Shown: in pieces, positions 3,046 to 30,130 of the stretch
How positions within the stretch are numbered: position 1 is the stretch's first letter
Layout: each line of letters starts with the position of its first letter
Source: Caldifarciminota bacterium
Lineage (GTDB): Bacteria; Hydrothermota; UBA3072
Direction of reading: 5' to 3'
NCBI GenBank assembly: GCA_016930175.1
Contig: JAFGHJ010000041.1
Coordinates: 1 to 39,594, forward strand
DNA length: 39,594 nucleotides
Translations under genes and position numbers: made by a program
Notes under the pieces: model-generated
What the model was told of the DNA's origin: nothing
Databases searched by the model: none
What the model saw: the letters and a program-made list of their open reading frames with translations, nothing else

Positions 3046-3063
3046 CAAAAAGCAAAATGACAA
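3046..3063. repeat. Dispersed 18-nt repeat, copy 1
   Basis: CAAAAAGCAAAATGACAA occurs here and again, identical, at 23033-23050. Both copies sit in intergenic DNA inside a longer A-rich stretch, 30-45 nt before a cluster of 9-nt-period repeats. This suggests one composite element. Confidence 0.7.
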
Positions 3064-3108
3064 TTAAAAATGTAAAATTAGACTTCTCCTGATCGAAAGA
3101 ACTAAAAA

Positions 3109-3230: not shown

Positions 3231-3251
3231 TTCTGGGAAGCGGTGGGGCGG

Positions 3252-3593: not shown

Positions 3594-3637
3594 ATATATA
3601 ACAAAAATAACATATTGAAGCCATTAGCTATTCACCT

Positions 3638-6134: not shown

Positions 6135-6807
6135 TAAGTTCTTTTTGAACCTGAACTAATTTCAGTTTTTCCTTCGCTTCTTCAAGAACTTCAGCATCTT
6201 CAGATATTTCAAATATTTTTTTAAGAGCAATTTCGGCTTCATCCGTTTGCTGCTGACCAAGATATAGCCTGGCAAGACTCAGTAAGCATTCTGCCTTAGA
6301 AAAATTATCTTTAAATTTGTCCGCTGCCAATCTATAATTATCTATGGCTTTAACCAAATCGCCTTTTTGCTCATAACACTGTCCGATCCCCTGATAGGAA
6401 CTGGGAGTAAAAAACCCATCGTAATTTCCATTTACAAAATCCTGGAATTTGTCCAGAGCATCATCCAAATTACCTTCCTTATAGCTTATGTTAGCCAACA
6501 TAAATTTCGAACGGTTAGCAAAAGCTGTACCCCAATATTTATCAACGACTGTTTGGAATCTATCCCGCGCCTGACTAAAATTACCACTATTGTATAAAAT
6601 CACACCCATATTATACATTTCTTTTGATTCTGCCATTTTTGTTTGTTTGTTACTTTTGTAAGTAAACAAAATTACAAGAAGTATGACAATGCCGGTTGCC
6701 AGCCATAAGACCGTTTTTTTATGATGTTCGTAAAAAACAATTATATCTTCAATTGTTTCCTTAAATTCATCGTGCTTTAAATCCTTTCTTCTGTATCTTG
6801 CCATCAT
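6127..6807 (-). CDS. YfgM-like membrane-anchored TPR protein
   Basis: A 226-residue protein. A basic, cytoplasmic N-terminus (MMARYRRKDLKHDEF) leads to one membrane helix at about 33-50 (VLWLATGIVILLVILF). Four to five TPR-type repeats follow, including YNMGVILYNSGNFSQARDRF and GIGQCYEQKGDLVKAIDNYR. The layout matches YfgM, an ancillary protein of the SecYEG translocon that helps envelope-protein folding, but similar TPR anchors exist, so the role is inferred. The start is one of two adjacent ATGs (6807 or 6804) behind GGGGGA. It lies 17 nt downstream of tRNA-Arg and is probably co-transcribed with it, the M24-like gene and the rhomboid gene. Confidence 0.75.
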   Translation of the reverse strand: MMARYRRKDLKHDEFKETIEDIIVFYEHHKKTVLWLATGIVILLVILFTYKSNKQTKMAESKEMYNMGVILYNSGNFSQARDRFQTVVDKYWGTAFANRSKFMLANISYKEGNLDDALDKFQDFVNGNYDGFFTPSSYQGIGQCYEQKGDLVKAIDNYRLAADKFKDNFSKAECLLSLARLYLGQQQTDEAEIALKKIFEISEDAEVLEEAKEKLKLVQVQKELNE

Positions 6808-6824
6808 TCCCCCTGTATTTTATA

Positions 6825-6897
6825 TACCCCTGGTAAGACTCGAACTTACGACTTCCGGTTTAGGAAACCGGTGCTCTATCCACTGAGCTACAGGGGC
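6825..6897 (-). tRNA. tRNA-Arg (anticodon CCT)
   Basis: The minus-strand cloverleaf has acceptor GCCCCTG/CAGGGGT (ending in a G1-U72 pair), D-arm GCTC..GAGC, anticodon stem CCGGT/ACCGG with loop TTCCTAA, and T-loop TTCGAGT. CCA is not encoded. It reads AGG codons. Its 3' end is 17 nt from the YfgM-like gene, so it probably heads that transcript. Confidence 0.96.
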
Positions 6898-6906
6898 ACG
6901 GTTATA

Positions 6907-6934
6907 TTTTTATCAAAAAAACTACATTTGTCAA
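6907..6934 (-). promoter_or_regulatory. Promoter of tRNA-Arg and probably the YfgM/M24/rhomboid genes
   Basis: TTGACA (6934-6929) is followed after 16 nt by TAAAAA (6912-6907), preceded by TGA as in extended -10 elements. The predicted start, about 6900, is only 2-3 nt before the mature tRNA end at 6897. Confidence 0.55.
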
Positions 6935-6951
6935 TCCTTCTCCAAAAATAA

Positions 6952-7041
6952 AGCTATCAGCTAACAGCTATCGGCTTTCAGCTAAAACATAAAAATAAGG
7001 AGGGTGACAGTAAAGCTGTTAGCCATAAGCTGTAAGCCGAG
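6952..7041. repeat. Inverted pair of 7-nt-period repeats after tamB
   Basis: The left arm (6952-6984) reads in 7-nt steps, for example AGCTAAC, AGCTATC, GGCTTTC. The right arm (7014-7041) reads GCTGTTA, GCCATAA, GCTGTAA, GCCGAGA, the opposite orientation. GCTAACAGCT (6960-6969) and AGCTGTTAGC (7014-7023) are exact complements 44 nt apart, so the RNA could fold. It lies just past the tamB stop, between the signalling operon and tRNA-Arg, and might end or stabilise the operon mRNA. Confidence 0.7.
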
Positions 7042-7061
7042 AACCCGTTCTGACCCAAAAC

Positions 7062-10000
7062 TCAATATCTCCATTCCAGGTTAAAAAGGAATCTTGTTGT
7101 TCCCTCAAAGTCCTTTTCAGCCGACATGTAACCCCATTTTTTCAACTTATACTCAGCCTGAACTTCAGATATTCCGTAAGATTGAAGATCAGTTCTGGCT
7201 TTGACAAAAAGTTTATCAGTTACATACTTACCAACAACAAATTCATAATGTCCGCTTCCTCCCTGCATTTCCAAAACGTCAATACCGAACTCTTCTTTCA
7301 ACCTGCGGTTCAGAGTCTGCCTCACCCAGTAATTAAAAGCTGTTTCGGTGACTGACTGCCCAATAGGCTTAACAGAAGTTAGATCTTCCCAACCAAGATT
7401 TAAGGAAAGCAGGGTCATTATTTCAGCTTTAGATAGAGAAGACTTGGAATACAAATCAAACTCGGGTGTCTTCATTGTTCCAGAAACCACAAGGAATACT
7501 GTATCTTGTTCATGATTTCCATTAGATCTGGAAGAAATAAGGGTTATCGCCTTAACATCAATGTTCGGATTTATTTCCGTAGATTCATTAAAATTGAATT
7601 TCCCCTCTACAACTTCAAAACTTTTGTAAAGATAGTAAAACATCCCTTGTCTTACCTCTAAATTTCCCGAAAGTAAGAGTGGTCCGCCTTGATAACTTAC
7701 TCCTACCTTTCCAGCCAGTTCAATATTGGCAAGGTCGTTTCTTATCCAAACGTTTCCCTGATTCGCATCAAAGGTCAAATCCAGAAAAAGATTCGAAGGG
7801 CGTCTGCCCTTTTCTCCTTTTTGTTCAAATTCCATTGTGATCGTAGCTCTACTAAGTTCTACATTCCCCTCTATTCGGATATCTTGACGGTCTTTTCTCA
7901 ATATTAAATCTCCGTCGATAATCGTGTTGACATATTGCCAATTAATTGGTGTATTTTTTAAAGACATTTTAATATCAAAGTCATTATCTCTCAGGTTAAC
8001 TATACCCTCTGCTTGAACCTTACCTTCACCCAACAATGCTGAGATATTTTCTAATTTTCCTTCTGCACCCTGGAATGAAGCCATAGCCTTTAGTTCTTTT
8101 ATCTTTATTCCCGGATTCTTCACGAACAAATCTGCTTCCTGGAGAATGATTCTCCCATAAATCAAAGGTTCTTTAAATGGACCCTTAACTTTTAAGTCTC
8201 CAGATAACTTAGCCATATTAGCAGTCAAATATTTCATCAAGGGAGAAAACACCCAACTACCAGCTTCTTTTAAGTTCATATCCACATCCAGGTATTTCTT
8301 CTCGGCATCAATCATCCCATCAAAATTCGAATATTTTCCATTTTCAATAACTGATAAGTTTTTTATAAAAATACTGTTATCTTCGTACCGGAGATCAAAA
8401 GTCAAAGAATCCCCTATTTTCTCTTCCTCCATTACTATCTTTCCTCCCCCTTTAAAATTAAAAGCGGGAGCGTCTGGCGTTCCTGCAATAGAAATCTTAC
8501 TTGAAACCTTACCCGAAAAAGGGTGTGAAATTAAACCGAATTCACTTAAAAACTCGGGTCTAAATCCTATCAAATCCAAATCTCCTTTAATTCCAAGCGC
8601 GGATAACGACAAATTGTTAATTTGAAAATCTTCCCCTTTATTACCTAAAAATCTTACGCCTTGCAAACTTAAGTCGTGTTTATAAGCAAATGAAAAGGGA
8701 GCAACTAAGTAAAGCCATCCACCGGGATATTCGAATCTAATATAGTTCACTTCCACAGTATCTAAATGTTGAGCAAAATTATAGTTTAATTTCTTGTTTT
8801 TACTTTTAAAAAGACCTTTTACCGCTAATTTATGATTTGCTATTTCAAGAGCAGATTCTCCAAACTCAAATATCTTTCTATCTTTAAAGGAAAAATCTCG
8901 CGACACTAAGGTTATTGTACCGGGAAAACTCCCTTTCCCTTGAGTAAGATTCAAGTTTCCGCCTACAGACTTCAATCTTATATCACCGTAAGTTAAATCC
9001 CTCAATGAAAAAGACCCATATATTTCGTCATCAATCGATAAACCTATGTCTAATACAGCAGATGTTTTAATTCCGAGAAATTTTGCAATAGGCGAGACGT
9101 CTAATTTGTCAATCTGTAAATTACCGTCTATTTTATCGGTGTATACTCCGGAAAAAACAAAATTCCCCCCATTGAAATAACCTTTACAACTATCGACATA
9201 TATATTTTTTCCCTTCTTGGTCATTCCAAGATTTAGATTTTCTAAAGGACTTTTAAGTACTTCTCCCTTTAGTTTAGAAATAACACAAAAGGTATCTTTA
9301 CCCATGTAATTAAAATCGATAAGACCCGATAACTTTGAAGAAGGATATTTACTATTTATTTTTTTAATATCAAAATCAGTTAGTTTAATTTGTCCATAAA
9401 TTCCACCCATAAAATTAAAAAATCCCGAGAAATTCTCTCCTTCTATTTGTACGGAATCCTTGATTCCCGCAAAATCGAATTGAGGCAAATTGAACCCCCG
9501 CAAATCAGCTATTTGACTTCGGCCTTCAAAAGTAATAGTGGTATCATAAGTAAAAAATACATCCAGGAAACCCTCACCTTTAATGCCAAACATTCTCTCC
9601 AAATCAGAAAGGTATATCTTACCATTCCCTTCTATTTTACCAAAAGTATCGCTTCTAATCTCAAATTCAGAATTTCCGATTCGGAGTTCTTTTACATTCA
9701 TGCTCGAAATTCTATCCGATACAGATAAATTAATATCTTGCACATCGAAAGGGATATCGTCTATTTTTCCCCAGATTCTTGGAAGACCAAGAACAATTTC
9801 TCCTTTCCCCGTAGAAAAAATCTCTCCGCTTCCATTTATCTGAAAATCATGCCCTTTCCATCCCACAGAGCCATCAAGCACTTCAATTTCCTCAATATAA
9901 AAGAGCGCAGAAATACTACTTTTTTCTCCGCCTTCTTTTCTCTCACTTATTGAAAACGAAGGAGAATCGAAAGATATTTTTTTTATCCTACGACTTAAAA

Positions 10001-10247
10001 GACCCATAGGCGAATAAAACACTTCCACTTTTGGAAGATAACCAAGGTCTTTGATGTATATTGAGTCTGCAGACACGCCGGTTACCCCTTTAAGCTTTAC
10101 ACTCCCAAGATAACTGCCACGAGGGAGCACAGAAATTATACGCCGTTCCAAGAGGTTCTCTATTTTTATAACTGCCAAATCCGATAGAAGACCCAGAAGA
10201 ACAATAAAAATCAAAAAAGAGAAAATAACAATGAGCTTTTTTTTCAT
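7062..10247 (-). CDS. tamB: TamB-family translocation/assembly module protein (DUF490)
   Basis: A 1061-residue protein with an N-terminal signal anchor (KLIVIFSFLIFIVLLGLL). A long run of amphipathic beta repeats typical of AsmA/TamB-like lipid-channel proteins follows. The C-terminal TamB (DUF490) domain includes GQSVTETAFNYWVRQTLNRR, DVLEMQGG, VVGKYVTDKLFVKART and a terminal aromatic LEWRY. TamB spans the periplasm and acts in outer-membrane protein assembly or phospholipid transport. Its usual partner TamA is not next to it. The start ATG shares one base with the stop of the upstream Roadblock gene (TAATG), so it is translated as the last gene of the chemosensory operon, an unusual setting. 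The family call is firm, but its relation to the signalling genes is inferred. Confidence 0.9.
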   Translation of the reverse strand: MKKKLIVIFSFLIFIVLLGLLSDLAVIKIENLLERRIISVLPRGSYLGSVKLKGVTGVSADSIYIKDLGYLPKVEVFYSPMGLLSRRIKKISFDSPSFSISERKEGGEKSSISALFYIEEIEVLDGSVGWKGHDFQINGSGEIFSTGKGEIVLGLPRIWGKIDDIPFDVQDINLSVSDRISSMNVKELRIGNSEFEIRSDTFGKIEGNGKIYLSDLERMFGIKGEGFLDVFFTYDTTITFEGRSQIADLRGFNLPQFDFAGIKDSVQIEGENFSGFFNFMGGIYGQIKLTDFDIKKINSKYPSSKLSGLIDFNYMGKDTFCVISKLKGEVLKSPLENLNLGMTKKGKNIYVDSCKGYFNGGNFVFSGVYTDKIDGNLQIDKLDVSPIAKFLGIKTSAVLDIGLSIDDEIYGSFSLRDLTYGDIRLKSVGGNLNLTQGKGSFPGTITLVSRDFSFKDRKIFEFGESALEIANHKLAVKGLFKSKNKKLNYNFAQHLDTVEVNYIRFEYPGGWLYLVAPFSFAYKHDLSLQGVRFLGNKGEDFQINNLSLSALGIKGDLDLIGFRPEFLSEFGLISHPFSGKVSSKISIAGTPDAPAFNFKGGGKIVMEEEKIGDSLTFDLRYEDNSIFIKNLSVIENGKYSNFDGMIDAEKKYLDVDMNLKEAGSWVFSPLMKYLTANMAKLSGDLKVKGPFKEPLIYGRIILQEADLFVKNPGIKIKELKAMASFQGAEGKLENISALLGEGKVQAEGIVNLRDNDFDIKMSLKNTPINWQYVNTIIDGDLILRKDRQDIRIEGNVELSRATITMEFEQKGEKGRRPSNLFLDLTFDANQGNVWIRNDLANIELAGKVGVSYQGGPLLLSGNLEVRQGMFYYLYKSFEVVEGKFNFNESTEINPNIDVKAITLISSRSNGNHEQDTVFLVVSGTMKTPEFDLYSKSSLSKAEIMTLLSLNLGWEDLTSVKPIGQSVTETAFNYWVRQTLNRRLKEEFGIDVLEMQGGSGHYEFVVGKYVTDKLFVKARTDLQSYGISEVQAEYKLKKWGYMSAEKDFEGTTRFLFNLEWRY

Positions 10248-10708
10248 TATTCAAACAAATTGTCCATAAGTTTTTCCCCATCTATCCTTTTAATTGAAGG
10301 AATTTTCTTACGGCTATTTTTATTTATCTCTTTTTTTAATCTTGACGCAAGTTTTTCCGATAAAACTCTGACAGAGCCTAACGATGCTTCATCCTTGAAT
10401 ATTACGACCAATAAAAACTGAGGACTTATATTTTGATAAAATAAGTTCCAGGCTTGCCCTTTAATAAAAAACTGCTTAAACTGATGTTCATCGACGATTT
10501 TAGCCAGCTCCTCAGTAGCGTTAAATACACTTGCAAGAAGGGCGGTTATCGTAGAAATTCTCTTTTCTTCTTTATGACCCGAATACACAAGTACTTCTCC
10601 ACTTTTTGCGGCAAAAAAAATGTGTTGTGCTCCCGTTCTAACTAGAAAATTCTCGAGAAATCTCTCGATTTTTTTCTGAATTTCATATAAAAGTATAATT
10701 GTTGACAC
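10247..10708 (-). CDS. Roadblock/LC7-domain protein (MglB-like), C-terminally extended
   Basis: A 153-residue protein. A helix (EIQKKIERFLENFLVRTG) leads into the Roadblock fold: AQHIFFAAKSGEVLVYSG, the helix ISTITALLASVFNATEELAKI, and strands ending FLLVVIF. A basic, lysine-rich C-terminal tail of about 35 residues follows. Roadblock proteins dimerise and typically regulate small Ras-like GTPases (MglB on MglA) or act as scaffolds. No GTPase is encoded in the window. The start appears to be GTG at 10708-10706, directly abutting the upstream stop (TAAGTG), with only a weak GAAGAA upstream. I see no alternative in-frame ATG nearby. Confidence 0.8.
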   Translation of the reverse strand: MSTIILLYEIQKKIERFLENFLVRTGAQHIFFAAKSGEVLVYSGHKEEKRISTITALLASVFNATEELAKIVDEHQFKQFFIKGQAWNLFYQNISPQFLLVVIFKDEASLGSVRVLSEKLASRLKKEINKNSRKKIPSIKRIDGEKLMDNLFE

Positions 10709-11041
10709 TTATAATTCTTCGGAAATTGCTTTTACGCATCTGCGCAGCTCAAACCGGATTTTTCCCGTATCGATGTCTGTAACCGTAAAAATACCTAAAA
10801 TAAAATCTCTCTGCGTAACAAGAAAAAGGTTCTTTTCTTTAGCCATGACACTTATTGAGAAATTGTTATTTATCCCCATCTGGGTCGAGAGTTCTTTAGT
10901 TATGGCAGCAATTAAAGCGGACACTAAAGATTTATCCGATTTATCATCTCCTGCGTTCTCTACGATTTCACCCTCTCTATCTACCAAATAACACGATAGT
11001 ACACCATCAATTGATGCGATTTCCTCCATTATTTTTTTCAT
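10709..11041 (-). CDS. Roadblock/LC7-domain protein (minimal)
   Basis: A 110-residue single-domain Roadblock protein. IDGVLSCYLVDREGEIVEN forms the first strands, SLVSALIAAITKELSTQMG the central helix, and FSISVMAKEKNLFLVTQ with FILGIFTV the following strands. It is close to the canonical MglB size. The ATG overlaps the upstream stop (TAATG) and GGGAG precedes it. It is the middle of three consecutive Roadblock-containing genes, so homo- or heterodimers are likely. Its partner is unknown. Confidence 0.85.
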   Translation of the reverse strand: MKKIMEEIASIDGVLSCYLVDREGEIVENAGDDKSDKSLVSALIAAITKELSTQMGINNNFSISVMAKEKNLFLVTQRDFILGIFTVTDIDTGKIRFELRRCVKAISEEL

Positions 11042-11742
11042 TACTCAACTCCCAAAAGCTCAATAGTTTTATGAAAACCCTGTATCAAGATATCCTCAAA
11101 CTCACTGAGTAGGATATTTTTAGTGGTGAGAACAATAAACCTTAAAGTCTCTGAACCCAGCACAATAATATTTCCGCCTGGCAATTCAAAAAAAACTTTA
11201 CTTATCGATCCCAATCCGAGATCCTTCGAAGAAAATCTTATTTTATCGTAAATCGAGGAAATTATTGCTCCGGTAGATTCACGCTCCATTGGCAATTCGA
11301 TACTTGCTTCTATCAAGGCTCCTATATCGTCGACCACTAAAACCCCTATAATTCCTTTTACCTTAAGCAAATTATTAAGAACCTCGCTAAGCGAACCGCC
11401 TAGCTCGACCTTGGTTTTCTTTTTTTTATCTTTTATTATCTTTTCTGTCTTCTCTTTTTTTGTATCTAATTTTAAGGATTTGAGAAGTTCATTGATTTCT
11501 TTATCATCAGGGCTGATTCTAATTGCATTTTTTAAAATTTCGGCCGCTTCCTTTTCCTCTCCCTCGCTTATATAAATTTTGCTCAACATAGAATAAGGTT
11601 TTATTTCTTCCCTGTTTTCCTTAATAGCGGTTTTTAGAAGATCTTTCGCCTCATCGACCAACCCATTTTCAACATAAAGACCGGCAAGAGAAATCAATAC
11701 GTCTAAGGAATTAACATCGGGTCGTAGCCCCTTTTCATTCAA
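11041..11742 (-). CDS. TPR-Roadblock/LC7 fusion protein
   Basis: A 233-residue protein. Residues about 10-95 form two to three TPR units (LISLAGLYVENGLVDEAKDL, YSMLSKIYISEGEEKEAAEI). A lysine-rich linker follows at about 95-112. A Roadblock domain covers about 115-233 (LSEVLNNLLKVKGIIGVLVV, TGAIISSIYDKIRFS, FIVLTTKNILL). The fusion joins the TPR theme of its upstream neighbours to the Roadblock theme of the two genes downstream, strengthening the view that these proteins form one complex. GGGAGG precedes the ATG, and the gene overlaps the DUF4388 gene by 8 nt. Confidence 0.85.
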   Translation of the reverse strand: MNEKGLRPDVNSLDVLISLAGLYVENGLVDEAKDLLKTAIKENREEIKPYSMLSKIYISEGEEKEAAEILKNAIRISPDDKEINELLKSLKLDTKKEKTEKIIKDKKKKTKVELGGSLSEVLNNLLKVKGIIGVLVVDDIGALIEASIELPMERESTGAIISSIYDKIRFSSKDLGLGSISKVFFELPGGNIIVLGSETLRFIVLTTKNILLSEFEDILIQGFHKTIELLGVE

Positions 11743-12751
11743 TTAAAACCTCCCAATTTACAATCTTTTTATGAATTCCTTTTACCAGATCAAGAGTTTC
11801 TCTGATTTCCTTTTTTTTATTTTCATCACCAGACAGAACCAAAAAAGAATTCCATTCAGAGATAGCTTCTTTAAACCTTCCCTCGGCAAGATAAAAATAA
11901 CCCATATTGTAGGAAATGCGTGAATCGTCAGGGTACATTTCCTTTAGTTTGAATAATTCCTTAAGTCCATCAGTAAACTTACCTTTGTTCCATAGCCTCT
12001 TCAACTCTTTAATCTTATCTGTCTCTTTTCCAATAGATGTTTTGTTTTCTTTGATTATATCATCTACGGGAATCTTCTTCTCGGTTATTATACCAGTCAT
12101 GGTCATACCATACAGAGATTTCATCACAGCAAATTTATCGCCTATTTTGTTTATAAGGGCACTTATGGTCAGATTCCCATCGATAAGGGAAAGCAACTTC
12201 CAATCCATTGGCGACAGATTTATTTGTTCTTTTTCTATTAAGTCAGTTGAAACCTCAAGAACAATATCGGTATTTGGCAAAATTTCTTCCATTTTGGAGA
12301 TTTCGTCAATTCTCCTCGCTGCTTCTAATATTATATTTTCTATCTTTATATCTAAGGTAAGGTAATCCGGAATTTCAAAGTCCGTCTCGCGAAAACTAAA
12401 ATGACCACTTTTTATTAGGAAAAGAGAGTAAAGTACATCAATTGCTGTTTGTTTAAATACTGTTTTAAAGGTACTAAGGGGAATTATATTGTTTTCAATT
12501 AAATAGTCGACGAATTTATTATCAGCCACTTCTATCACTTCATCTTTGGTCAAAAAACCCCTTTTCAAAAACTCGTTTTTCAATCTTTCGGGAAAATCAA
12601 CCGAAGCAAGATTACCTCTATCGAAATAAAGAACATAGGACTTAACAATATCTTCACCGCTTATTGTTAAAATCCCTTTCTTCTCAGCCAGGGAAATTAA
12701 CTGAAAAAGTTCAAAAAGTCCCAATTCTTTTATCGGTCCCTCAATAGGCAT
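11735..12751 (-). CDS. DUF4388 (PATAN) domain protein with C-terminal TPRs
   Basis: A 338-residue protein from the ATG at 12751-12749. A TTG codon just before it (12754) could extend it by one residue. The ATG shares a base with the upstream stop (TGATG), behind GGGAGAG. Residues about 1-100 have the PATAN/DUF4388 pattern (GLFELFQLISLAEKKGIL, YVLYFDRGNLASVDF), known from bacterial signalling proteins including PatA-type response regulators. The middle (LSPMDWKLLSLIDG) resembles the helical DUF4388-associated segment. About 240-338 contain TPR helices (YNMGYFYLAEGRFKEAISEW). The domain is thought to mediate protein interactions. Here it sits between a TPR scaffold and the Roadblock proteins. 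Confidence 0.8.
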   Translation of the reverse strand: MPIEGPIKELGLFELFQLISLAEKKGILTISGEDIVKSYVLYFDRGNLASVDFPERLKNEFLKRGFLTKDEVIEVADNKFVDYLIENNIIPLSTFKTVFKQTAIDVLYSLFLIKSGHFSFRETDFEIPDYLTLDIKIENIILEAARRIDEISKMEEILPNTDIVLEVSTDLIEKEQINLSPMDWKLLSLIDGNLTISALINKIGDKFAVMKSLYGMTMTGIITEKKIPVDDIIKENKTSIGKETDKIKELKRLWNKGKFTDGLKELFKLKEMYPDDSRISYNMGYFYLAEGRFKEAISEWNSFLVLSGDENKKKEIRETLDLVKGIHKKIVNWEVLIE

Positions 12752-15390
12752 CAAATCTCTCCCGTAATATTTCTAAGTCGCAACAAACTTTCAATAGCTT
12801 GTCTTGCTTTTCCTAATACTTTTTCGTCCTTCGCCTCATTTACTATATTATTCCATAAATCTTCTGCTTCTTTATATCTTCCTTGCTTGAAATACAAAGA
12901 AGCGAGAAGATGATAAGCTTCAAAATTTTTGCTGTCAAATCCGACGGCTTGTTTTAAACTATTTACAGCTGCATCGATTTCATCTTTATTGTATAAGGCT
13001 TTCGCCTCCCACAAAGCCAAATCGCCATCAGCTTTTATAACTTCTTTAGCTTCCTTTGCACTCTTTATCACAGCATCGTAGTTCTTGGCGACCAGACAAG
13101 TTTTAACCAAAGCTTTCAATATTCGCTTATCTTTCGGGGCCAATCTTTTTGCTTTTGACAGAGCTTCAATTGCACCCTGCAAGTCACCTTCTCTAACCTT
13201 CTGATTGGATAACTGATAATATCCTTCGGCAGAGGGAGAAATAGAAAGGCTTTTCTCGATAAAAGAGTTGGCCGTTTTCTTTTTCCCTAATTTAAAATTA
13301 ATGGACGCAAGTTCCAGCAAAATTCCGTTTTCTTTTTGCCAGGCAGGAAATGTCTTGAGAAGTTCGATTGCCTTGTTATACTTTTTCTTTGTTTTCAGAT
13401 ATTGAGCAGAAGCAATATAAGGAAAAGATTCTTCGGGATATTTCCTGTTGAGTTCTTTGGCAAGAGCTAAAGCCGAATCCCATTCTTTATTTTCCTGATA
13501 TATTTTTGTCAATAACTTCGAAGCCTCAAGGTTAGAAGGTACTAACACACGTAAAACATCCTTTGCCTCTCCAAGTAAATCTTTCTTTTCATATACTTTA
13601 CCCAAAAGGAGCAATAGTTCTTCATTTTCAGGCTCTACATTTCTAGCTTCAGACAAAACTTCCAGGGCTTCGTTCAATTTATTCTCTTTAAGTAAGGCAG
13701 CAGCTTTATTAATTTCTTTTTTAATATCTACTTCCGGTTCAATCTCTTCTCTCGGTGCCTCAAAAAGGTCTCCAAAGAAATCTTCGGCAGTCTCTTCTCC
13801 TGCAACTCTTCCGACTTCCATATCCTTTGTTAATTCCCTTGCAACTAGAATTCCAAGACGCTCAGAGTAAATATCTACCCCTAATTTAAATCTATTGCTC
13901 GAATAGTACGGATCTATTTCCATGGCTTTTTTCGTGGCCTCAAGCGCCTCATCATACTTACCTATTCGGGATAAGGCAAAACCGAGATTATAAAGAGCCT
14001 CGGCGAAACTATCATCCCGCTCAACAGCCATTCTGAAGAAATATATTGCGTCTTCGAACCGCTCAAGACTCAAGTAAACCGACCCGAGGTAATTAAAAGG
14101 AAGCGGGTTTTCTCCTTTCATTTCAATAACTTTTTTAAAAAATCTTTCGGCGCTTTCGTAATTGCCTCTCGTCATATAAACAAGACCAATATTCAAATAT
14201 GGATCAGAGTATTCGGGGTTTATTTCTTTTGCTCTTTTCAAACAATTAAAAGCTTCTTTCGGAGCACCAGAATGGTAATAAGCGACTCCAAGATTGTTCC
14301 ATGAAACAGCATAATTAAGATCTTTCGAAATCGCTCTCTTATACCATGAAATAGCATCTTCGAGCTTTCCCAATCGGTGATATGCAATCCCGATATTATT
14401 TGCTAATTTGGGTAAATCAGGATCCTGTTTGAGAGCCTCCAGGTAAGCCTTTATCGCTTCTTCATTGTCACCCATAAATAAGTAAACTTCTCCTATTTGC
14501 TCTCTTACAAGAGAATTACTCGGATCAGCCTTTACGGCTTTTTTAAGTTCCTGAAGAGATTCTTTAAACAATCCTTTGTTTTTGTAAGCAAGTCCCATGG
14601 CATAAAAACCAAAAGAAGGGTTTGCCTCAATTTTATCCTTTGAGACAGAGAGGAAATCCTCGTAGCCCTTCCTTTTATAAAGACCCAAGCTTAAGTTAGC
14701 TTCTGTTTTTGCAAAACGAGGGTTTAAATTTATTGCCTTTTTTGCTGCTTTAGTCGCTTCATCAAATTTACCTTCCTCGCCGTATGTAAAAGACAGCAAA
14801 TAGTAAGATTCCGCGTCCTTGGGATTAAGTCGGATTGCCGTTTTTAACTCTTCAATAGCCGAGGAAAACATTCCCAAATTATAATAAACTTCTCCCAGAT
14901 ACTTATGAGCAGAGTCGTTGTTCTTATCTAAACGAATAACTTTTTTGAACTGCTCAACGGAAGGCTCATAGAATCCGCTGGCTTTACAAGCCACACCCAT
15001 ATCCAAAAGAGCTTGAACATCGGAAGGCTTCTGTCTTAAATACTTGCTATATTGGTTTATAGCCTCGTAATAATTACCTATACTCTTATAAGCTCTTGCC
15101 AGTTCGAGTCTGGATTCAAAGTCGTCCGGCTCCCGCTCCATTTTGTTTTTAAGCCTCTCAATTTGCTCGTCATAGAAACCGGTACTTCTATATATATAAT
15201 CAAGGTTATTCTTAGCCAGAGTGAAATGCGGATCAATTCCAAGCGCTTTTTTTAACTCTTCAACAGCTTCTTTCACTAAACCTTTATTATAGTAAACAAC
15301 AGCAAGATTATTATGTGAGCCTGAATCGGTAGGCTCAATTTTTTTAGAAAATAATTTCAATAGCTTCTTTTCTTGTTCGGATATTTCCAT
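12751..15390 (-). CDS. Large tetratricopeptide-repeat scaffold protein
   Basis: An 879-residue soluble protein with no signal peptide or membrane helix. From residue about 20 to 500 it is nearly continuous 34-residue TPRs with the W/L-G-Y-A-P pattern (LAVVYYNKGLVKEAVEELKK, NLGVAYYHSGAPKEAFNCLK, NIGLVYMTRGNYESAERFFK). An acidic, non-TPR linker at about 505-560 (ERLGILVARELTKDMEVG, then AEDFFGDLF) is followed by a second TPR block to the end. TPR superhelices bind peptides and assemble complexes, so a scaffold role for the Che and Roadblock proteins is inferred. It starts 9 nt after cheC with a poor ribosome site and overlaps the next gene by one base. Confidence 0.85.
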   Translation of the reverse strand: MEISEQEKKLLKLFSKKIEPTDSGSHNNLAVVYYNKGLVKEAVEELKKALGIDPHFTLAKNNLDYIYRSTGFYDEQIERLKNKMEREPDDFESRLELARAYKSIGNYYEAINQYSKYLRQKPSDVQALLDMGVACKASGFYEPSVEQFKKVIRLDKNNDSAHKYLGEVYYNLGMFSSAIEELKTAIRLNPKDAESYYLLSFTYGEEGKFDEATKAAKKAINLNPRFAKTEANLSLGLYKRKGYEDFLSVSKDKIEANPSFGFYAMGLAYKNKGLFKESLQELKKAVKADPSNSLVREQIGEVYLFMGDNEEAIKAYLEALKQDPDLPKLANNIGIAYHRLGKLEDAISWYKRAISKDLNYAVSWNNLGVAYYHSGAPKEAFNCLKRAKEINPEYSDPYLNIGLVYMTRGNYESAERFFKKVIEMKGENPLPFNYLGSVYLSLERFEDAIYFFRMAVERDDSFAEALYNLGFALSRIGKYDEALEATKKAMEIDPYYSSNRFKLGVDIYSERLGILVARELTKDMEVGRVAGEETAEDFFGDLFEAPREEIEPEVDIKKEINKAAALLKENKLNEALEVLSEARNVEPENEELLLLLGKVYEKKDLLGEAKDVLRVLVPSNLEASKLLTKIYQENKEWDSALALAKELNRKYPEESFPYIASAQYLKTKKKYNKAIELLKTFPAWQKENGILLELASINFKLGKKKTANSFIEKSLSISPSAEGYYQLSNQKVREGDLQGAIEALSKAKRLAPKDKRILKALVKTCLVAKNYDAVIKSAKEAKEVIKADGDLALWEAKALYNKDEIDAAVNSLKQAVGFDSKNFEAYHLLASLYFKQGRYKEAEDLWNNIVNEAKDEKVLGKARQAIESLLRLRNITGEI

Positions 15391-15399
15391 TTTAAATAT

Positions 15400-16017
15400 C
15401 TATAAGAGATTCATCGCCTTTAAAATATTACTCAGACTTTCAGAATCTGGTATTAATAGAAGGAAAGTCTCAAGGTGACTATCAGTGTTTTTAAAATGAA
15501 AGATACTTTTTACGCAGAAGACGAATTCTTCTCCGGCAGTAAATTCGAGATAAGCACTTGAAATTATAGACCGGAAATCATCCCATACAATTATCGGCAC
15601 TGAAGGTAAAAGCATAAGGCCAAGAAATTCGGATATCGCACTAAGATAAGAACTGCAAAGGATATTAGCCACTTCTTTGATCGAAGAAATTCCCATTTCG
15701 TCAATTTCCGAATAATCTGATATCTCTTTATCAAGTAAAATACCGACAAGAAGTTTCGCATCTTTATCGTCCAACACTACAAGATTTCTGCCAGTAGCAT
15801 CACCGAAAAACTTAGTGAGAGCAGCAACAGCAATACTACCTTTTAGGTTTAATATCTCGGATGTCTTTTCAATGGGAAAAATTTCGATTTCCGGCACCTT
15901 CACTTCGACTTGCTTATTCAACATTTGACTTAAAGCCGTAGCTGCATGCCCTCCACCAATATTGGCAGCTTCTTTTATACCATCCAATTGTAAATCTTTA
16001 AGATCCTGTATTTTCAT
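15400..16017 (-). CDS. cheC: CheC-type CheY-P phosphatase
   Basis: A 205-residue protein with both CheC active-site copies of (D/S)xxxExxN: D12-E16-N19 in LDGIKEAANIGGGHAATALS, and S111-E115-N118 in SSIKEVANILCSSYLSAIS. The family dephosphorylates CheY-P, and two intact sites predict an active phosphatase. CheD, the common CheC partner, is absent here. A strong AGGAGGAG precedes the ATG at 16017, and the gene overlaps the end of cheA by 20 nt, fitting joint expression with the kinase whose signal it ends. Confidence 0.92.
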   Translation of the reverse strand: MKIQDLKDLQLDGIKEAANIGGGHAATALSQMLNKQVEVKVPEIEIFPIEKTSEILNLKGSIAVAALTKFFGDATGRNLVVLDDKDAKLLVGILLDKEISDYSEIDEMGISSIKEVANILCSSYLSAISEFLGLMLLPSVPIIVWDDFRSIISSAYLEFTAGEEFVFCVKSIFHFKNTDSHLETFLLLIPDSESLSNILKAMNLL

Positions 16018-17803
16018 AACTCCTCCTATATCTTAAAGCAGGCAAGTCCAAAATCAAACAAGGTCTTCCGTCCCCAATCATCGTAATACCTATGTATCCT
16101 TTAATTCTATCGATTGGCGAAGGTAAAGGCTTGACAACTGCTTCCATACTTCCTCTAAAAGTTCCCCCTACAATGGCAAAACGGTCATTCTCTATTTCAA
16201 CAACTACACATGGCGCATGCTGGTTTCCATTACTTGAAGAACGTTGCCTTAGAATGTCGGAAAGACGATAAACAGGAAGAATTTCTCTACGAAGCAACAT
16301 TACTTCTTTTCCCATAAGACGCGACAAAGAATCGGCTGAAACCGTTAACGTTTCATCAACAAAAGTCATAGGCAACGCGAACAACTGATTATCTAAACCA
16401 AGCAGATAAACTTTAATTATCGACATAGAAAGAGGCATTTTCATTGATATCGTTGTTCCTTTATTTTTTTCGGTATTTATATTAACACTTCCCCCTACAG
16501 AGCGTACAAGCTTTCGCACCACATCTAATCCAACGCCTCGTCCGGAAACTTTATCAACTTTTTCCTTAGTTGTAAATCCCGGAGCAAATAAAAATCTTAA
16601 TATTTCTCCTTTTGAAAGAGATTCCATCTCCTCTTCTTCTACCAAACCCCTCTTGAATGCAACAAGGATAACTTCTTTTTCATCTATCCCTTTCCCATCA
16701 TCGCTTATCTGTATCAATATATCTCCCTTTACGCTTTTCGCCGAAACAGTTATTTTCCCAACTCTGTGTTTGTTCAATTTTTCTCTCTCCTCGGGAGACT
16801 CAATACCATGAGAGACAGAATTTCTAATAAGATGAATCAGGGGATCACCGATCCCCTCAAGAAGAGAACGATCAACTTCGATATCCGCTCCAAAAATTTC
16901 AATATTCACTTCTTTTCCTAATTTCCTGCTCAAATCTCTGACGTATCTCGGAAATTTATCAAAAATCAACGATAGGGGCACCAGTCTGATCTTCGTAATA
17001 ACTTCCTGCAATTCCTTCACGCTTCTGCTATGAAGGTCTAAAACCCCCTGAAATTTTTCTTCACCAAAACTTCTAATAATTTCGGATAATTGAGACGTAG
17101 TAACAACCAATTCACCAACAAGATTTTGCATTCTATCCAGCATATTCACGTTAACTCTTATACCTTCAATCCCGCTGGGCGAAGTTCTTCCTGAACTTTT
17201 CTTATCCTCAAATTTAACTGTTTCGACTTCATCAATGGAAGCAACTAAGTCTATAATCTTTTCGGGTTCGGCGCAACGAACTTTTAATATTCTCCCAATA
17301 TTACCGGACTTAATTTCCTCGTAAGAGGGATCTACGCTTTCAATTTTCGTCTTTTCTTGTATTCTTTGAATAATTACAGCCGCTCTCGCAGCCGGGAGGG
17401 AAACATCCTCTTTGAGTAAAATTTCAAGATAGGGCATATCACCGATTTCTGGACTTGCCTCTTCTCCGGTTTTCTCTTGTCTCTCCAGCGTTGCCAAAAG
17501 ACTTTCTATTCTGTCAATACCTTTAAACACTTCATCTATAATATCGGCATCAACCTTTCTTTTTTCTCCTTCTTTAAAAACCTCCATTTTCTCTTCAAGG
17601 TCATGAGAAATGGTTTCTATCTCAGTATAACCAAGAGAAGCAGCCATTCCTTTCAGCGTATGGAAAATTCTGTAAACCTCAGCAGTTATCTTTTTATTAT
17701 CGGGTTCTTTCTCAAGTTCGACAATTATTTTATTCAGTTTACTTAAATACTCACTGCTTTCTTCTTTAAATAGTTTTATATACTCTGCTCTCTGCTCGTC
17801 CAT
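15998..17803 (-). CDS. cheA: Chemotaxis-type histidine kinase CheA
   Basis: A 601-residue protein with classical P1-P5 order. The HPt domain (about 1-105) has phospho-acceptor H48 in FHTLKGMAASLGY. A P2-like domain (about 120-205) resembles those of Thermotoga/Bacillus-type CheA. The P3 dimerisation helices carry VNVNMLDRMQNLVGELVV. The HATPase domain has the N box LIRNSVSHGIE, G1 DDGKGID and G2 GRGVGLDVV. The C-terminal CheW-like domain (about 455-595) includes FALPMTFVDETL. It autophosphorylates under control of the receptor-CheW array and passes phosphate to CheY. Only 10 nt separate it from cheY. No good Shine-Dalgarno precedes the ATG. Confidence 0.96.
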   Translation of the reverse strand: MDEQRAEYIKLFKEESSEYLSKLNKIIVELEKEPDNKKITAEVYRIFHTLKGMAASLGYTEIETISHDLEEKMEVFKEGEKRKVDADIIDEVFKGIDRIESLLATLERQEKTGEEASPEIGDMPYLEILLKEDVSLPAARAAVIIQRIQEKTKIESVDPSYEEIKSGNIGRILKVRCAEPEKIIDLVASIDEVETVKFEDKKSSGRTSPSGIEGIRVNVNMLDRMQNLVGELVVTTSQLSEIIRSFGEEKFQGVLDLHSRSVKELQEVITKIRLVPLSLIFDKFPRYVRDLSRKLGKEVNIEIFGADIEVDRSLLEGIGDPLIHLIRNSVSHGIESPEEREKLNKHRVGKITVSAKSVKGDILIQISDDGKGIDEKEVILVAFKRGLVEEEEMESLSKGEILRFLFAPGFTTKEKVDKVSGRGVGLDVVRKLVRSVGGSVNINTEKNKGTTISMKMPLSMSIIKVYLLGLDNQLFALPMTFVDETLTVSADSLSRLMGKEVMLLRREILPVYRLSDILRQRSSSNGNQHAPCVVVEIENDRFAIVGGTFRGSMEAVVKPLPSPIDRIKGYIGITMIGDGRPCLILDLPALRYRRSYENTGS

Positions 17804-17813: not shown

Positions 17814-18179
17814 TTACAGTTTTAAAACCCTCTGAACTGCTTCTATAACTCGTGAAGGCTGAAAAGGTTTGACCACATAGTCCTTTGCTCCAGCCTGGAT
17901 AGCTTCAACAACCAAACTCTGGTGTCCCATAGCACTCACAACCACAATTTTGGCTTCGGAATCTAATTCTTTTATTTTTTTAATTGCCTCTATTCCGCTC
18001 ATGTCAGGCATTATTATATCCATAGTAACGAGATCTGGTTTATTTTTCTCGTATTTCTGGACGGCTTCACTACCGTTTCCCGCTTCATCGCAGATCTCGT
18101 AACCGCCTTTCTGAAGTATATCCGCCAACATCTTCCTCATAAATATTGCATCATCTACTACTAAAATCCTTGCGCTCAT
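17814..18179 (-). CDS. cheY: CheY-like single-domain response regulator
   Basis: A 121-residue stand-alone receiver domain. Phospho-acceptor D54 lies in TMDIIMPDMSG. The acidic pocket is D9/D10 (LVVDD), the switch Ser is S82 (VVVSAMG) and the conserved Lys is K104 (VVKPF). The sequence is of the Thermotoga/Bacillus CheY type. With no output domain it should act by binding a partner, either a flagellar switch or, here, possibly one of the TPR, PATAN or Roadblock proteins encoded downstream. AAGGAGG precedes the ATG. It lies 15 nt after cheW and 10 nt before cheA. Confidence 0.95.
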   Translation of the reverse strand: MSARILVVDDAIFMRKMLADILQKGGYEICDEAGNGSEAVQKYEKNKPDLVTMDIIMPDMSGIEAIKKIKELDSEAKIVVVSAMGHQSLVVEAIQAGAKDYVVKPFQPSRVIEAVQRVLKL

Positions 18180-18194: not shown

Positions 18195-18596
18195 TCATAT
18201 TAATTCTTTTATGTCAATAATTATATATTTTTCTTTCAATTTCACAATTCCTTTCATATACTTTGACTCTATTTCCCCTTTTAAGCTGGAAGGAACATTT
18301 TTTATTTCCGAACCAGAAACTTCATGGATATCAAGGACTCTGTCCGGTCTTAAACCCACTACCATACCATTAATTATACAGAGTATAATTTCACGTGAGG
18401 TAGATTTGCCCGTGAGGCCTATCTTCTTCCTCAAATCTATCACCGTGATAGGTTCTCCACGGAGATTCATTACTCCTTCAAGATAATCACTCGATAAAGG
18501 AACCGGAGTTATTTCTTTTTCTTCAACAATTTCCTTTACATTTTCCAACGGTATGCCAAAGAATTTATCTTCTAAAGTAAAGCTCAAAAATTCCAT
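18195..18596 (-). CDS. cheW: CheW adaptor protein
   Basis: A 133-residue protein consisting of one CheW domain: LSFTLEDKFFGIPLENVKEI, then LEGVMNLRGEPITVIDLRKK with the conserved NLRG, and a C-terminal GIVKLKEKYIIIDI. CheW links chemoreceptor tips to CheA. The ATG overlaps the stop of the receptor gene (TAATG) behind GGAGTT, so adaptor and receptor are translationally coupled. It is the only CheW gene in the window and is expected to dock onto the signalling hairpins of the upstream fusion receptor. Confidence 0.95.
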   Translation of the reverse strand: MEFLSFTLEDKFFGIPLENVKEIVEEKEITPVPLSSDYLEGVMNLRGEPITVIDLRKKIGLTGKSTSREIILCIINGMVVGLRPDRVLDIHEVSGSEIKNVPSSLKGEIESKYMKGIVKLKEKYIIIDIKELI

Positions 18597-21500
18597 TATT
18601 CAACTCCAACCCATTCATAATGTAAGCGATTAAGCAAATCTGATCGGACACCAAAAACTCTATCACTAAGTAGTAAAAAATTAGTATCGTAATCAAGAAA
18701 AACAAAAGGGGCTTCTTCTACTATCATTTTTTCCGACTCCTGACATAATTTTTTTCTAAGAACCGGATTTATTTCTCTCATTCCCTCTTTTATTTTGTTA
18801 TCAAGAATTTTATTGGAATAAAAGGTTAAATTTCCTCTACCAGCCTGAGAAGAGTGGAAAAGAGAAAATAAAAAATCGTTAGGATCAACACTATCAGGAA
18901 CCCAACTACTCAAAAATAACTGTGCCCTCCCCTCTTTAACTTTTTTTGTGAATTTTCCCCAGGGATTTTTCTCGATTTTCAAAGTAACTCCGATACCGGA
19001 AAAAGCCTCCTTTATAAATTCGGCTCTTCTGATCATAATGGGAGAATCATAAATTGAGAGAGTATATGTCTCAGGTAAACCTCCGTCAAAACCCGCCTCC
19101 TCAAGAAGCTTCTTTGCTTTCGCCTCATTATATTCATATCCTTCTATTTCAGGATTATATGTGTTAAATCCTGAGTGGAACAGACCCTTTGGAATTTCAC
19201 CAAAACCTGAAGAGGTCTCTTCTATAATAACCTCTTTATCTATTGCGTGGTTCATCGCTTGACGAACCTTCTTATTACTAAAAGGAAGTTCCTTCATATT
19301 AAAGTTAAAGCCAAGGTAATTCATATTCAAACAAACGGACGAAAATAAATTTTTACTTAAGTCCTTATCAATTTTAATGCTGGAAACAGATTCCGCAGGA
19401 ACCCTTACAATATCAAATACACCACTCTTGAATTCTTCCACAGGATCCCCCCCGGCCGTAAAAATGACTCTTGATAAATAAGGTTTACCTGCGAAATAAT
19501 CTGAATAGGATTCCAAAACTATTTTTTCTTCTTTTTTCCAATTTTGCAATTTAAATGGTCCTATACCTATAATACCATTCTCATCGGAATCTTTTGCCAT
19601 TATAGACGAATTGAGTTTTGCTAAATCTGAAAGAAAAGACATATTAATTTCACTTAATCTAATCGAAAAGGAATATTTGCCTTTAATTTCTATTTCATCA
19701 ATCAAACCAAAAGAGCTGATTTTATCACTTTCTTTTAATCTTTCGAGCGTAAATTTGACATCTTCGGAATCGATTTTTCTTCCTTTATGATCTTTAATAT
19801 CTTCCCTTAATGTAAAATCCCACCTTTTAACATCTTCCGATAGCTCCCACCTTTCCAACATCAAAGGATATACCTGACCTCGTAGGCCCGAATCAAATAA
19901 TCCTCTATGTATAAGATAAATGATTTCATTTGTCACGGGATCCTCAAATTTTGAAGGGTGCAAAGAAACCGGAATTTTCTGAAGATAGATATTCAGCTTC
20001 GATTCGCTATCCTTTTCCATAACTTCGAAGGCACTCAGGTTTTTCCAATTATGATCCTGAGTAAGATTCTCGGTTAAACTTTTCTCTTTATCTAAATTTT
20101 TCTCAAGCTCTTCGGTAGCTTCTGTGTACTTTTTCAATGCTTCGACTACCGCAACAAAAGAATTACCAATTTCCCCAATCACATCTTCCTGTTTATCAAT
20201 AAAAGGTCTAATACTTGAAGAAACTTCCGTCAAAGTTTCTATTTGGTCTTTATTTTCTTGAAATGCAACCTCGCTTTCGTTAACGATATCCTTAAGTCTA
20301 CTTATTGTATTATCAATCGTTAGAGTTGTCCTTCTTAAATCCTCGATCTTCTCGTTCACCGGGTTAAAAAACCGCCACAATTTGTCACCTAATTTCGAAT
20401 AATCATTGGAAAGCTTCTGCATTTCATCTACAATCGAAGAAAGCCCTTTTATATCATGCGGCACTCTTGATGCTTCTATTTTTCCATAAAGTGAAATAAC
20501 TCTTAATTGTTCTGCAAAATCTCCCGCGTTTTCAACTAATCTTCCTAAACCGGAGGAAATTCTGGATAAATTTACCTGAATATTTGCAACCTCATCTATA
20601 CCTATTGCTTCTTTCTCTATAAAAGACTGAACACTCTTAATATTACTAAGACATAAATTTGCCTGATATTGTGTTACCTTAATAATTTCTTTTAGCCCTT
20701 CAATCTCTCTTCCAATCATCCCCAACATTTTCTTCATACTATCTAACTCAGATAAGTCAAGATTGCTTTGCATAGGAGTCGAACTTAAGGCTACAACACT
20801 AAGCTGGCTATAGCGATCAAGCTTGTCAACCTCTTTCAAGGCAAAATCTATTTGTGAAATATTAAAAGGCAAGAGAGCTGAGCCCTTTTCAACCAAGTAA
20901 CTAAAAACATCTATATGATTCTTTAAAATTTCTATGACTGCTCTTCTTTGAGAAAGCAAAAGGTCTATTTCTCCCAACTTCAAAAGCGTATCTCTTGATA
21001 AAGAAAGTAAAAAATTAGCTGTCTCTTCAATATCGCGTCTTTTTATGTCAATATTTTCAAGCAAATTTAACAATTTATCTGATGTATCCATGACAAGAGA
21101 AATTTTATCTCGCACCTCATCGGAACTTTGCTTTAAATCATCCGCATTTACGATAAAATTGGAGAGACTTTCTCGTATAGCTCCGAATTTGTCTGTAGCT
21201 TCCTTCGATCTATCTTTGAGAGATTCAAGTCTTTCCACCATCTCTTTGACAATCTCCAATGATTTTCCCGTTAACCTTCCCAATTCTTCGGCTACCACTT
21301 CGAATCCTTTGCCTAAAGCTCCAGCTTGATAAGCCTTGATCTCGGCGTTTCTGGCTGTATTACCTGAGGTTTCGTTGAGTTCCTGAAGACTTGATACTAT
21401 CGTATTGATTTCTTCCCTTTTGCCAATCAAATCTTCTAACTTCTGGCTAAGATTAACGGTGCTGTCACTAAAGAAATGAATCCTGTTCATTACTTCATTT

Positions 21501-21742
21501 ATTAGACTGAGACCGAAAGACAACAATTCTTCACTCTTTCTGACAGTAATCCTGAAAGAATCAGAACCTTCGTAGATAACATACATAGAAGCATACAAGT
21601 TTTTTAACATCTTTCTTATTTCCGTTAACTCCGCAGATGATTCCATCTGTTTGGTGGAAAGTTGATTCCAAAGAAAAGCCGTCTCTTTAGATAAATCCTC
21701 TAATTTACCTATGTATTCCTTTACAGTGTCATTTGCTTCCAT
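18596..21742 (-). CDS. Soluble fusion receptor: two chemoreceptor-like signalling segments plus an SBP_bac_5 (oligopeptide-binding) domain
   Basis: A 1048-residue protein from the ATG at 21742. Residues about 1-575 are long coiled coils with two regions resembling the chemoreceptor hairpin tip: NAEIKAYQAGALGKGFEVVA followed by EELGRL (about 132-157), and LRVISLYGKIEASRV followed by GLSSIVDEMQKL (about 413-444). Residues about 581-1048 form a full extracellular solute-binding family 5 domain (LIHRGLFDSG, YPLMLERWELSED, WDFTLREDIKDHKGRKIDSE, KVRQAMNHAIDKE, YNEAKAKKLLEEAGFDGG). No signal peptide or membrane helix is visible, so a domain usually periplasmic appears to be cytoplasmic. The open frame runs upstream to 21850, but that part crosses a repeat and the promoter, so I reject it. 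There is no clear Shine-Dalgarno. It is the first gene of the operon. Confidence 0.85.
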   Translation of the reverse strand: MEANDTVKEYIGKLEDLSKETAFLWNQLSTKQMESSAELTEIRKMLKNLYASMYVIYEGSDSFRITVRKSEELLSFGLSLINEVMNRIHFFSDSTVNLSQKLEDLIGKREEINTIVSSLQELNETSGNTARNAEIKAYQAGALGKGFEVVAEELGRLTGKSLEIVKEMVERLESLKDRSKEATDKFGAIRESLSNFIVNADDLKQSSDEVRDKISLVMDTSDKLLNLLENIDIKRRDIEETANFLLSLSRDTLLKLGEIDLLLSQRRAVIEILKNHIDVFSYLVEKGSALLPFNISQIDFALKEVDKLDRYSQLSVVALSSTPMQSNLDLSELDSMKKMLGMIGREIEGLKEIIKVTQYQANLCLSNIKSVQSFIEKEAIGIDEVANIQVNLSRISSGLGRLVENAGDFAEQLRVISLYGKIEASRVPHDIKGLSSIVDEMQKLSNDYSKLGDKLWRFFNPVNEKIEDLRRTTLTIDNTISRLKDIVNESEVAFQENKDQIETLTEVSSSIRPFIDKQEDVIGEIGNSFVAVVEALKKYTEATEELEKNLDKEKSLTENLTQDHNWKNLSAFEVMEKDSESKLNIYLQKIPVSLHPSKFEDPVTNEIIYLIHRGLFDSGLRGQVYPLMLERWELSEDVKRWDFTLREDIKDHKGRKIDSEDVKFTLERLKESDKISSFGLIDEIEIKGKYSFSIRLSEINMSFLSDLAKLNSSIMAKDSDENGIIGIGPFKLQNWKKEEKIVLESYSDYFAGKPYLSRVIFTAGGDPVEEFKSGVFDIVRVPAESVSSIKIDKDLSKNLFSSVCLNMNYLGFNFNMKELPFSNKKVRQAMNHAIDKEVIIEETSSGFGEIPKGLFHSGFNTYNPEIEGYEYNEAKAKKLLEEAGFDGGLPETYTLSIYDSPIMIRRAEFIKEAFSGIGVTLKIEKNPWGKFTKKVKEGRAQLFLSSWVPDSVDPNDFLFSLFHSSQAGRGNLTFYSNKILDNKIKEGMREINPVLRKKLCQESEKMIVEEAPFVFLDYDTNFLLLSDRVFGVRSDLLNRLHYEWVGVE

Positions 21743-29146: not shown

Positions 29147-30130
29147 CTAAAACGAAAATCCGACAGAGGCTCTATTGACCATGTCATACAAATCGTGTTC
29201 GCTGTATGAATAGTCGATTCTCACACCTGCCATACTAATACCGACTCCTGCATTCAAACCTTCAGCGTAATAGTTGAATTTATATCCGGCCCGCAAAAAA
29301 ATCATATTTTTGTATGACAATTCTGCTCCCACGTTATACTGCTCTTCCCAATCGCGAGGATGCAGCATATCCGCGGCGATATTAAAAGAATAATCGGGAT
29401 ATTCTCCAAAAATATCCAGAATATCCATACCTACACCGAGAGCAAAGGTTAAAGGCAATTCAAACCCAATCCGTTCATAAGTTACCCGGGGAGAGAAATT
29501 TCTAACAGACATACCGAAAGCGAAACTTTTAAAACCGGGATAAAAAAGTAAACCAAAGTCGTAAGACAGAGTCGAAATCTCGTTCTCTACAGTATCTATA
29601 ACACCCGCCTCTGCTCCCTGAAAGAGATTCGATCCAAGATGTTGAGCAACGTACTTCACCTGACCGCCAACCGTGAACTTATCGGTGAATTCTCTTGCAT
29701 AAGCTACACCCGCGCAAAACGCGGAAACATCTACAAGACCGGTATTGATAAAGCCAGCCCCCACAGTAGAGTCCACACGAGTACCGAAAATTTCACCATA
29801 ATCAGGAGCTATAACACTAAAGCCGAAATTTCCCCAAACTCCGGCATTAAAGACACCAGCCACATAGAGATAATTAATATCGGCAATCCACTGCGTTCCA
29901 CCGGCAGATAAATCAAAATTGGCTTCTATTTCTCCTATACCCGAAGGATTATAGAAGAGAGCCGAAGCATCCTGCCCCAACACGGTAAATGCCTGCCCCA
30001 TTCCGCAAGCGCGAGCTCCCTCGGCAACATCCAAAAAACCGCAGCCGGTCTGGGCAACTTTGTCCTGAGCGTAAGCATTAAGTGAAAGAACAAATATCAA
30101 TAGAGATATAAAAACAATAAATTTCTTCAT
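29147..30130 (-). CDS. PorV/PorQ family outer-membrane protein (copy 1)
   Basis: A 327-residue protein. The signal peptide is about 1-21 (FIVFISLLIFVLSLNAYA). The PorV hallmark is TGCGFLDVAEGARACGMGQA and LGQDASALFYNPSGIG near the N-terminus. A predicted 14-stranded FadL-like barrel follows, ending DMVNRASVGFSF. PorV-type proteins shuttle type IX secretion substrates at the outer membrane. It starts 12 nt after the stop of the large FN3 sorting-domain gene, behind GGGGGAGG, and is nearly identical at its ends to the second copy at 36559. No other type IX components are in the window. Confidence 0.88.
   Translation of the reverse strand: MKKFIVFISLLIFVLSLNAYAQDKVAQTGCGFLDVAEGARACGMGQAFTVLGQDASALFYNPSGIGEIEANFDLSAGGTQWIADINYLYVAGVFNAGVWGNFGFSVIAPDYGEIFGTRVDSTVGAGFINTGLVDVSAFCAGVAYAREFTDKFTVGGQVKYVAQHLGSNLFQGAEAGVIDTVENEISTLSYDFGLLFYPGFKSFAFGMSVRNFSPRVTYERIGFELPLTFALGVGMDILDIFGEYPDYSFNIAADMLHPRDWEEQYNVGAELSYKNMIFLRAGYKFNYYAEGLNAGVGISMAGVRIDYSYSEHDLYDMVNRASVGFSF

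Follow-up and report, generated by a model that had tools for sequence, protein, structure and literature searches.

The window analyzed here is a stretch of 39,594 nucleotides from a Caldifarciminota bacterium (contig JAFGHJ010000041.1). It encodes a fusion receptor of 1048 residues (18596..21742) in which two chemoreceptor (MCP) signaling hairpins are followed by a C-terminal SBP_bac_5 domain, as assigned from the open reading frame, profile matches, and homologs. This gene, the features within it, and the operon genes given below are all on the reverse (-) strand. The gene reads as a single open frame of 1048 codons with no internal stop, and no frameshift or assembly join was found near residue 580, where one was looked for. 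The predicted start is the ATG at 21742; starting from a GTG further upstream (21850) would lengthen the protein by 36 residues. The ATG start is supported because the homologs begin at the same position, their N-termini (MEANDT, MEMDNT, MEKNNN) aligning with it.

The chain consists of 562 residues of chemoreceptor signaling helices followed by a DppA/OppA-type SBP_bac_5 domain. A preliminary description of this DNA had proposed a complete SBP_bac_5 domain joined to about 575 residues of chemoreceptor-like coiled coil. The MCP-type helices were correctly recognized, but they were taken for one hairpin and the tandem pair was missed; the complementary tips, the operon, and the CheA linkage described below were also overlooked. 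The MCP match is significant: the Pfam profile PF00015 (MCPsignal) is matched in two separate stretches of the fusion with an E of 1.7e-14 and 54.5 bits, against a curated cut-off of 34.6, and at E 1e-3 or better in all 50 homologs scanned. Two marks of the MCP superfamily, a signaling domain above this cut-off and a helical hairpin with a conserved tip (AlphaFold2 models and homolog alignment), are thus found in the protein, and complexes with CheW and CheA, a further mark, are suggested by gene linkage and co-occurrence. The SBP_bac_5 domain (residues 579-1048; 18599..20008) was assigned from its PF00496 profile and its two-lobed, DppA/GbpA/OppA-type fold. The profile match (E 2.1e-71, 241 bits, residues 623-967) covers profile positions 1-366 of 368 and the domain is therefore complete, as had been claimed. 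The fold matches that of 3m8u (GbpA; VIA Z 34.0, rmsd 2.1 over 463 residues) and the sequence matches that of DppA (E 1.6e-45), while the SgrR-family profile NF010149 matches weakly (E 4e-7 vs 9e-47 for DppA).

The fusion gene is the first of a chemosensory operon. The start codon of cheW (18195..18596; PF01584, E 1.8e-28) lies inside the stop codon of the fusion gene (TAATG, 18594-18598), which bears out the translational coupling noted previously. The operon continues with a CheY-like single-domain receiver (17814..18179) and a CheA with Hpt, P2, dimerization, ATPase, and CheW domains (15998..17803), which is the sole CheA found in the genome. These are followed by a CheC/CheX phosphatase (15400..16017), assigned like the receiver from a profile match, a conserved TPR protein of 879 residues (12751..15390), a protein with DUF4388 (PATAN-like) and TPR domains (11735..12754), a TPR-Roadblock protein (11041..11742), and two Roadblock/LC7-like proteins with weak profile matches (10709..11041 and 10247..10708). 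We take the three Roadblock/LC7-like proteins (10247-11742) to resemble MglB-type polarity regulators.

A scan of the whole fusion protein found no signal peptide and no window of 19 residues with the hydrophobicity of a membrane helix, in agreement with the preliminary description, and a cryptic signal peptide or membrane segment was therefore rejected. Unlike the fusion, its SBP_bac_5 paralogs in the host genome begin with a hydrophobic stretch that resembles a signal peptide. A second intracellular SBP family, considered for frames of ~690 residues, was rejected as these export paralogs are ordinary lipoprotein-like SBPs. Isolated stretches of high hydrophobicity were observed in two homologs: that of L066 belongs to an extension from an upstream start, and that of L014 falls within the coil. 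Neither an export signal in the fusion nor a permease in its operon was found, both of which characterize the SBP family 5 importers. Additionally, the consensus methylation motif [ASTG][ASTG]xx[EQ][EQ]xx[ASTG][ASTG] is absent from the window protein and present in just 4 of the 50 homologs. Methylation-based adaptation on the fusion receptor was rejected, as it has no consensus sites; CheR, CheB, and CheD exist elsewhere in the genome. The missing motifs are no bar to MCP membership; TlpD likewise lacks canonical methylation sites.

Hairpin 1 spans residues 2-286 (20885..21739; PF00015 match at residues 98-219) and hairpin 2 spans residues 291-562 (20057..20872). The second half scores 25 bits against PF00015 in the window protein and reaches E 4.6e-16 in homologs, so that both halves match the profile. 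In the full-length AlphaFold2 model (mean pLDDT 85.5, pTM 0.69) helices are predicted at residues 2-139, 141-286, 291-320, 331-425, and 434-562, followed by the SBP fold. The bundle was also folded alone, with 50 homologs, because a fold search with the full-length model listed SBPs only; the result was the same (pLDDT 86.3, with a moderate pTM of 0.64), with the helices of hairpin 2 ending at 317 or 320 and at 425 or 426, depending on the model. Residues 90-480 of the model superpose on 6z0c, a designed single-chain four-helix bundle, over 196 of 196 residues (2.4 A, Z 16.4). In the model the two tips must then lie together at the same end of a single bundle, an arrangement like that of an MCP dimer but formed by one chain. 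Another match is the Thermotoga MCP 2ch7 (Foldseek probability 1.00, TM by target 0.67; Z 11.7). The matches with the best Z, TTYH and pore-forming proteins, were rejected as kin since they are generic long helical bundles. The two tandem hairpins are therefore predicted to fold into one single-chain four-helix bundle with the tips together, a covalent pseudo-dimer, in models that are to be read with the caveat that AlphaFold2 monomer runs can fold long hairpins back on themselves. Among the homologs the spacing between the tips clusters at ~284 and at ~298 residues, values that lie two heptads apart. This step fits MCP coiled coils and is compatible with a folded or a stacked bundle alike.

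The two tips have lost different residues. Positions are given below in Tsr numbering and counts are over 50 homologs. Tip 1 (residues 129-147, NTARNAEIKAYQAGALGKGF; 21302..21358) retains the equivalents of N381 (49/49), G393 (49/49), and G395 (50/50) along with GxGF, but at the E385 position it never has glutamate (K in 31, T in 12, and R in 6) and at the R388 position it has H (39) or Q (8). Tip 2 (residues 416-428, ISLYGKIEASRVP; 20459..20497) retains E385 in all 50 and R388 in 43, with K in another 5, but has Y or F at the N381 position and is missing the GRGF segment. The glutamate is kept in the single tip of each of the two ordinary MCPs from the same genome. In trimers of receptor dimers, E385 and R388' form the ionic lock between dimers (PMC8144572). 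As the losses in the two tips are complementary, unequal roles are proposed for the hairpins: the conservation pattern suggests that hairpin 2 is turned toward the trimer axis, with hairpin 1 toward CheA/CheW.

The ligand-binding residues of the SBP domain were compared to those of DppA, in which the dipeptide termini are clamped by two charged residues (PMC12136057) and the amine is bound by D408 (PMC3295651; for the role of D408/D436 see also PMC12136057). The D408 equivalent in the fusion is D950, which lies within the conserved pocket motif WxxDxGDPDNFLxPLFHS and is aspartate in 48 of 50 homologs. The position of R355, the second of the contacts that define a DppA dipeptide receptor, is D, E, G, or a gap depending on the alignment, and the arginine is not conserved. 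An intracellular peptide-like ligand is plausible because the amine-binding aspartate is kept. Judging from these residues, the ligand likely bears an amine and is less likely to be a plain dipeptide, as the carboxylate-binding arginine of DppA is not conserved. Internal peptides for the receptor could come from a Dpp-type importer locus of the host genome, which includes two SBPs. At this locus (G000:C44:20162-26765) two SBP_bac_5 genes of ~650 residues are followed by two DppBC-like permease genes; the same contig also bears two PilT genes (9510-11607).

Across the phylum (WOR-3/Stahlbacteria), 147 genomes were searched by profile; 46 of them carry the fusion, some in two copies, and two more match with the SBP part alone. 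In a whole-genome search of 60 relatives, 29 (the window genome included) had homologs, nearly all of which were full length. Relatives that carry names are MAGs of candidate division WOR-3, Stahlbacteria, and TA06, plus one of Candidatus Edwardsbacteria. Identity to the homologs is 21-53%, and the domain join is kept even at ~21% over the full length. The soluble, CheW-coupled receptor with a complete C-terminal SBP_bac_5 fold is thus conserved across the phylum. In most families the length changes fall within residues 250-370, near the turn distal to the tips. Families f11 and f36 have a second fusion paralog that is more diverged and has shortened outer arms (for example at G016:C13, G105:C1:159960, and G106:C1:1533524 [L157, L159], and in other genomes of these families).

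The gene is usually the first of a FUS-CheW-CheY-CheA-CheC-TPR-PATAN-Roadblock operon, and the order FUS-CheW-CheY-CheA-CheC-TPR is kept in most of the families sampled; the receptor gene is away from CheA in f9, f18, f24, and Edwardsbacteria. Among the 60 relatives, all 28 genomes with CheA have the fusion and none of the 31 fusion-free genomes has CheA (Fisher p 2.8e-16, not corrected for common descent). The only fusion genome that lacks CheA is a MAG of 77% completeness. Aside from one marginal match, the genomes with the fusion have no FliM, and a flagellar output was therefore rejected. PilT is present in the fusion genomes and, together with the absence of FliM, points to type IV pili as the probable output of the system. 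Since PilT is also found in most genomes that lack the fusion, the link to pili is drawn from gene adjacency and the lack of flagella. In family f9 the PilT gene beside the fusion receptor lies between biotin carboxylase and biotin-carrier genes (L054, 3950-6850).

Several other explanations were considered. The joining of two neighboring genes by a sequencing or assembly error has a negligible probability, as the frame is open and the same join, for which a homolog search had been proposed, recurs in dozens of independent assemblies from many studies, at 21-53% identity and including two single-contig genomes (G105 and G106). Several chemosensory systems have outputs other than motility, and as the partners encoded in this operon (TPR, PATAN, and Roadblock proteins) are not motor proteins, the system may instead control gene expression, polysaccharide secretion, or cell polarity. 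We consider this possible but doubtful, as PilT lies only a few kb from the fusion in family f9, with CheR/CheD/CheB close by in one case, and as the host has a second locus (G000:C23 [L040], 2989-9664) with the order CheR-CheD-CheB-TPR-AAA-CheW-MCP-CheW, a PilT gene ~6 kb upstream, and no CheA of its own. This locus probably uses the same CheA as the window operon, in which case a membrane MCP and the soluble fusion may feed one kinase.

The SBP domain might sense no ligand and instead form a cap, either structural or for docking another protein, such as a pilus ATPase or one of the TPR, PATAN, or Roadblock partners. The lack of conservation of the carboxylate-binding arginine would fit a cap, TPR partners are always encoded nearby, and direct binding of SBPs to receptors has precedent (PMC9602780). 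It is nevertheless an unlikely role, as conservation of the amine-binding aspartate and the surrounding pocket motif would not be expected without ligand binding. It is quite improbable that the hairpins are stacked end to end with the tips at opposite ends, which would allow the protein to bridge two CheA/CheW base plates with the SBP domains in a middle layer. DosM of the Vibrio cholerae F9 system, a rod with one signaling domain at each end (PMC7534058), likewise has two MCP signaling stretches in one soluble protein. However, both AlphaFold2 models of the fusion interrupt the helix at 287-290, the bundle-only model has both predicted tips at one end, tip conservation is complementary rather than equal, and a triple CheW was not seen among the operon genes.

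The reading that we favor, and consider fairly probable, is that of a cytoplasmic receptor built on a tandem-hairpin pseudo-dimer bundle, which senses a peptide-like ligand and signals through CheW/CheA to type IV pili. The C-terminal Venus-flytrap domain would bind a small, amine-bearing, peptide-like ligand in the cytoplasm, and its closure on the ligand would send a signal along the long four-helix bundle to the CheW and CheA encoded alongside, with hairpin 2 probably making the trimer contacts and hairpin 1 probably facing CheA/CheW. CheA would then phosphorylate CheY, CheC would reset CheY, and the PATAN, TPR, and Roadblock proteins may carry the output to pilus motility or polarity. The receptor of this little-studied, uncultured group is wholly intracellular and probably directs pilus-driven movement by gauging the peptide supply within. 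In this reading the domain composition, the soluble sequence, the operon, the co-occurrence with CheA, and the conserved tips are observations; the bundle fold is a prediction, and the ligand class, the direction of the signal, the pilus output, and the parts played by the tips are inferred. A peptide-import binding fold relocated inside the cell would supply the chief input to the sole CheA system of its hosts, which suggests that pilus movement is led by the internal nutrient state and not by outside ligands.

In ordinary chemoreceptor dimers, two identical hairpins are forced into unequal parts in the array. We see a roughly even chance that the fusion is a specialized pseudo-dimer, with hairpin 2 as the trimer lock and hairpin 1 as the CheA/CheW contact, driven by a cytoplasmic peptide-binding flytrap. 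If so, this chemoreceptor would be naturally and permanently asymmetric and would serve as the core receptor of a chemosensory system that spans the phylum. The unequal parts seem to be fixed in the sequence, so that conservation would show, and mutation could probe, how labor is divided between the halves.

Each element of the receptor has a precedent. The sensor does follow the signaling helices, as described previously, but the novelty of this inverted order was overstated, as TlpD and SgrR/DsvR show. TlpD (PAS-MA-CZB; PMC12871147) and other soluble chemoreceptors with a C-terminal sensor are cytoplasmic, have no membrane helix, and place the sensor after the hairpin; TlpD, however, is a homodimer with one hairpin per chain and a CZB zinc sensor, whereas the fusion has two diverged hairpins per chain and an SBP_bac_5 sensor. 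In the transcription factors SgrR/DsvR a C-terminal, unexported SBP_bac_5 sensor works in the cytoplasm (PMC13060122), with an HTH DNA-binding domain as output in place of the chemoreceptor bundle. DosM shares the solubility and the two signaling domains per chain but carries a tip at each end of an extended rod, whereas the fusion is modeled with its tips at one end and has an SBP domain. DppA, GbpA, and OppA share the complete fold and the conserved amine-binding aspartate; the fusion differs in being unexported, joined to a receptor, and without conservation of the carboxylate-binding arginine of DppA. The Pil-Chp and Frz systems also combine CheA, CheW, and CheY with pilus genes in the absence of flagella, and the Roadblock proteins of the fusion operon presumably recall MglB, but the receptor and the PATAN/TPR/Roadblock operon differ and the likeness is a working analogy. 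No description of an MCP-SBP_bac_5 receptor, of the three elements combined, or of a single-chain pseudo-dimer was found in the open-access literature. Elsewhere in the window, two near-identical paralogous exported proteins (29147-30130 and 36559-37557; MKKFIVFI...VAQTGCGFLDVA.GARACGMG.AFTV) each adjoin the gene of a large exported protein, which represents a local tandem duplication.
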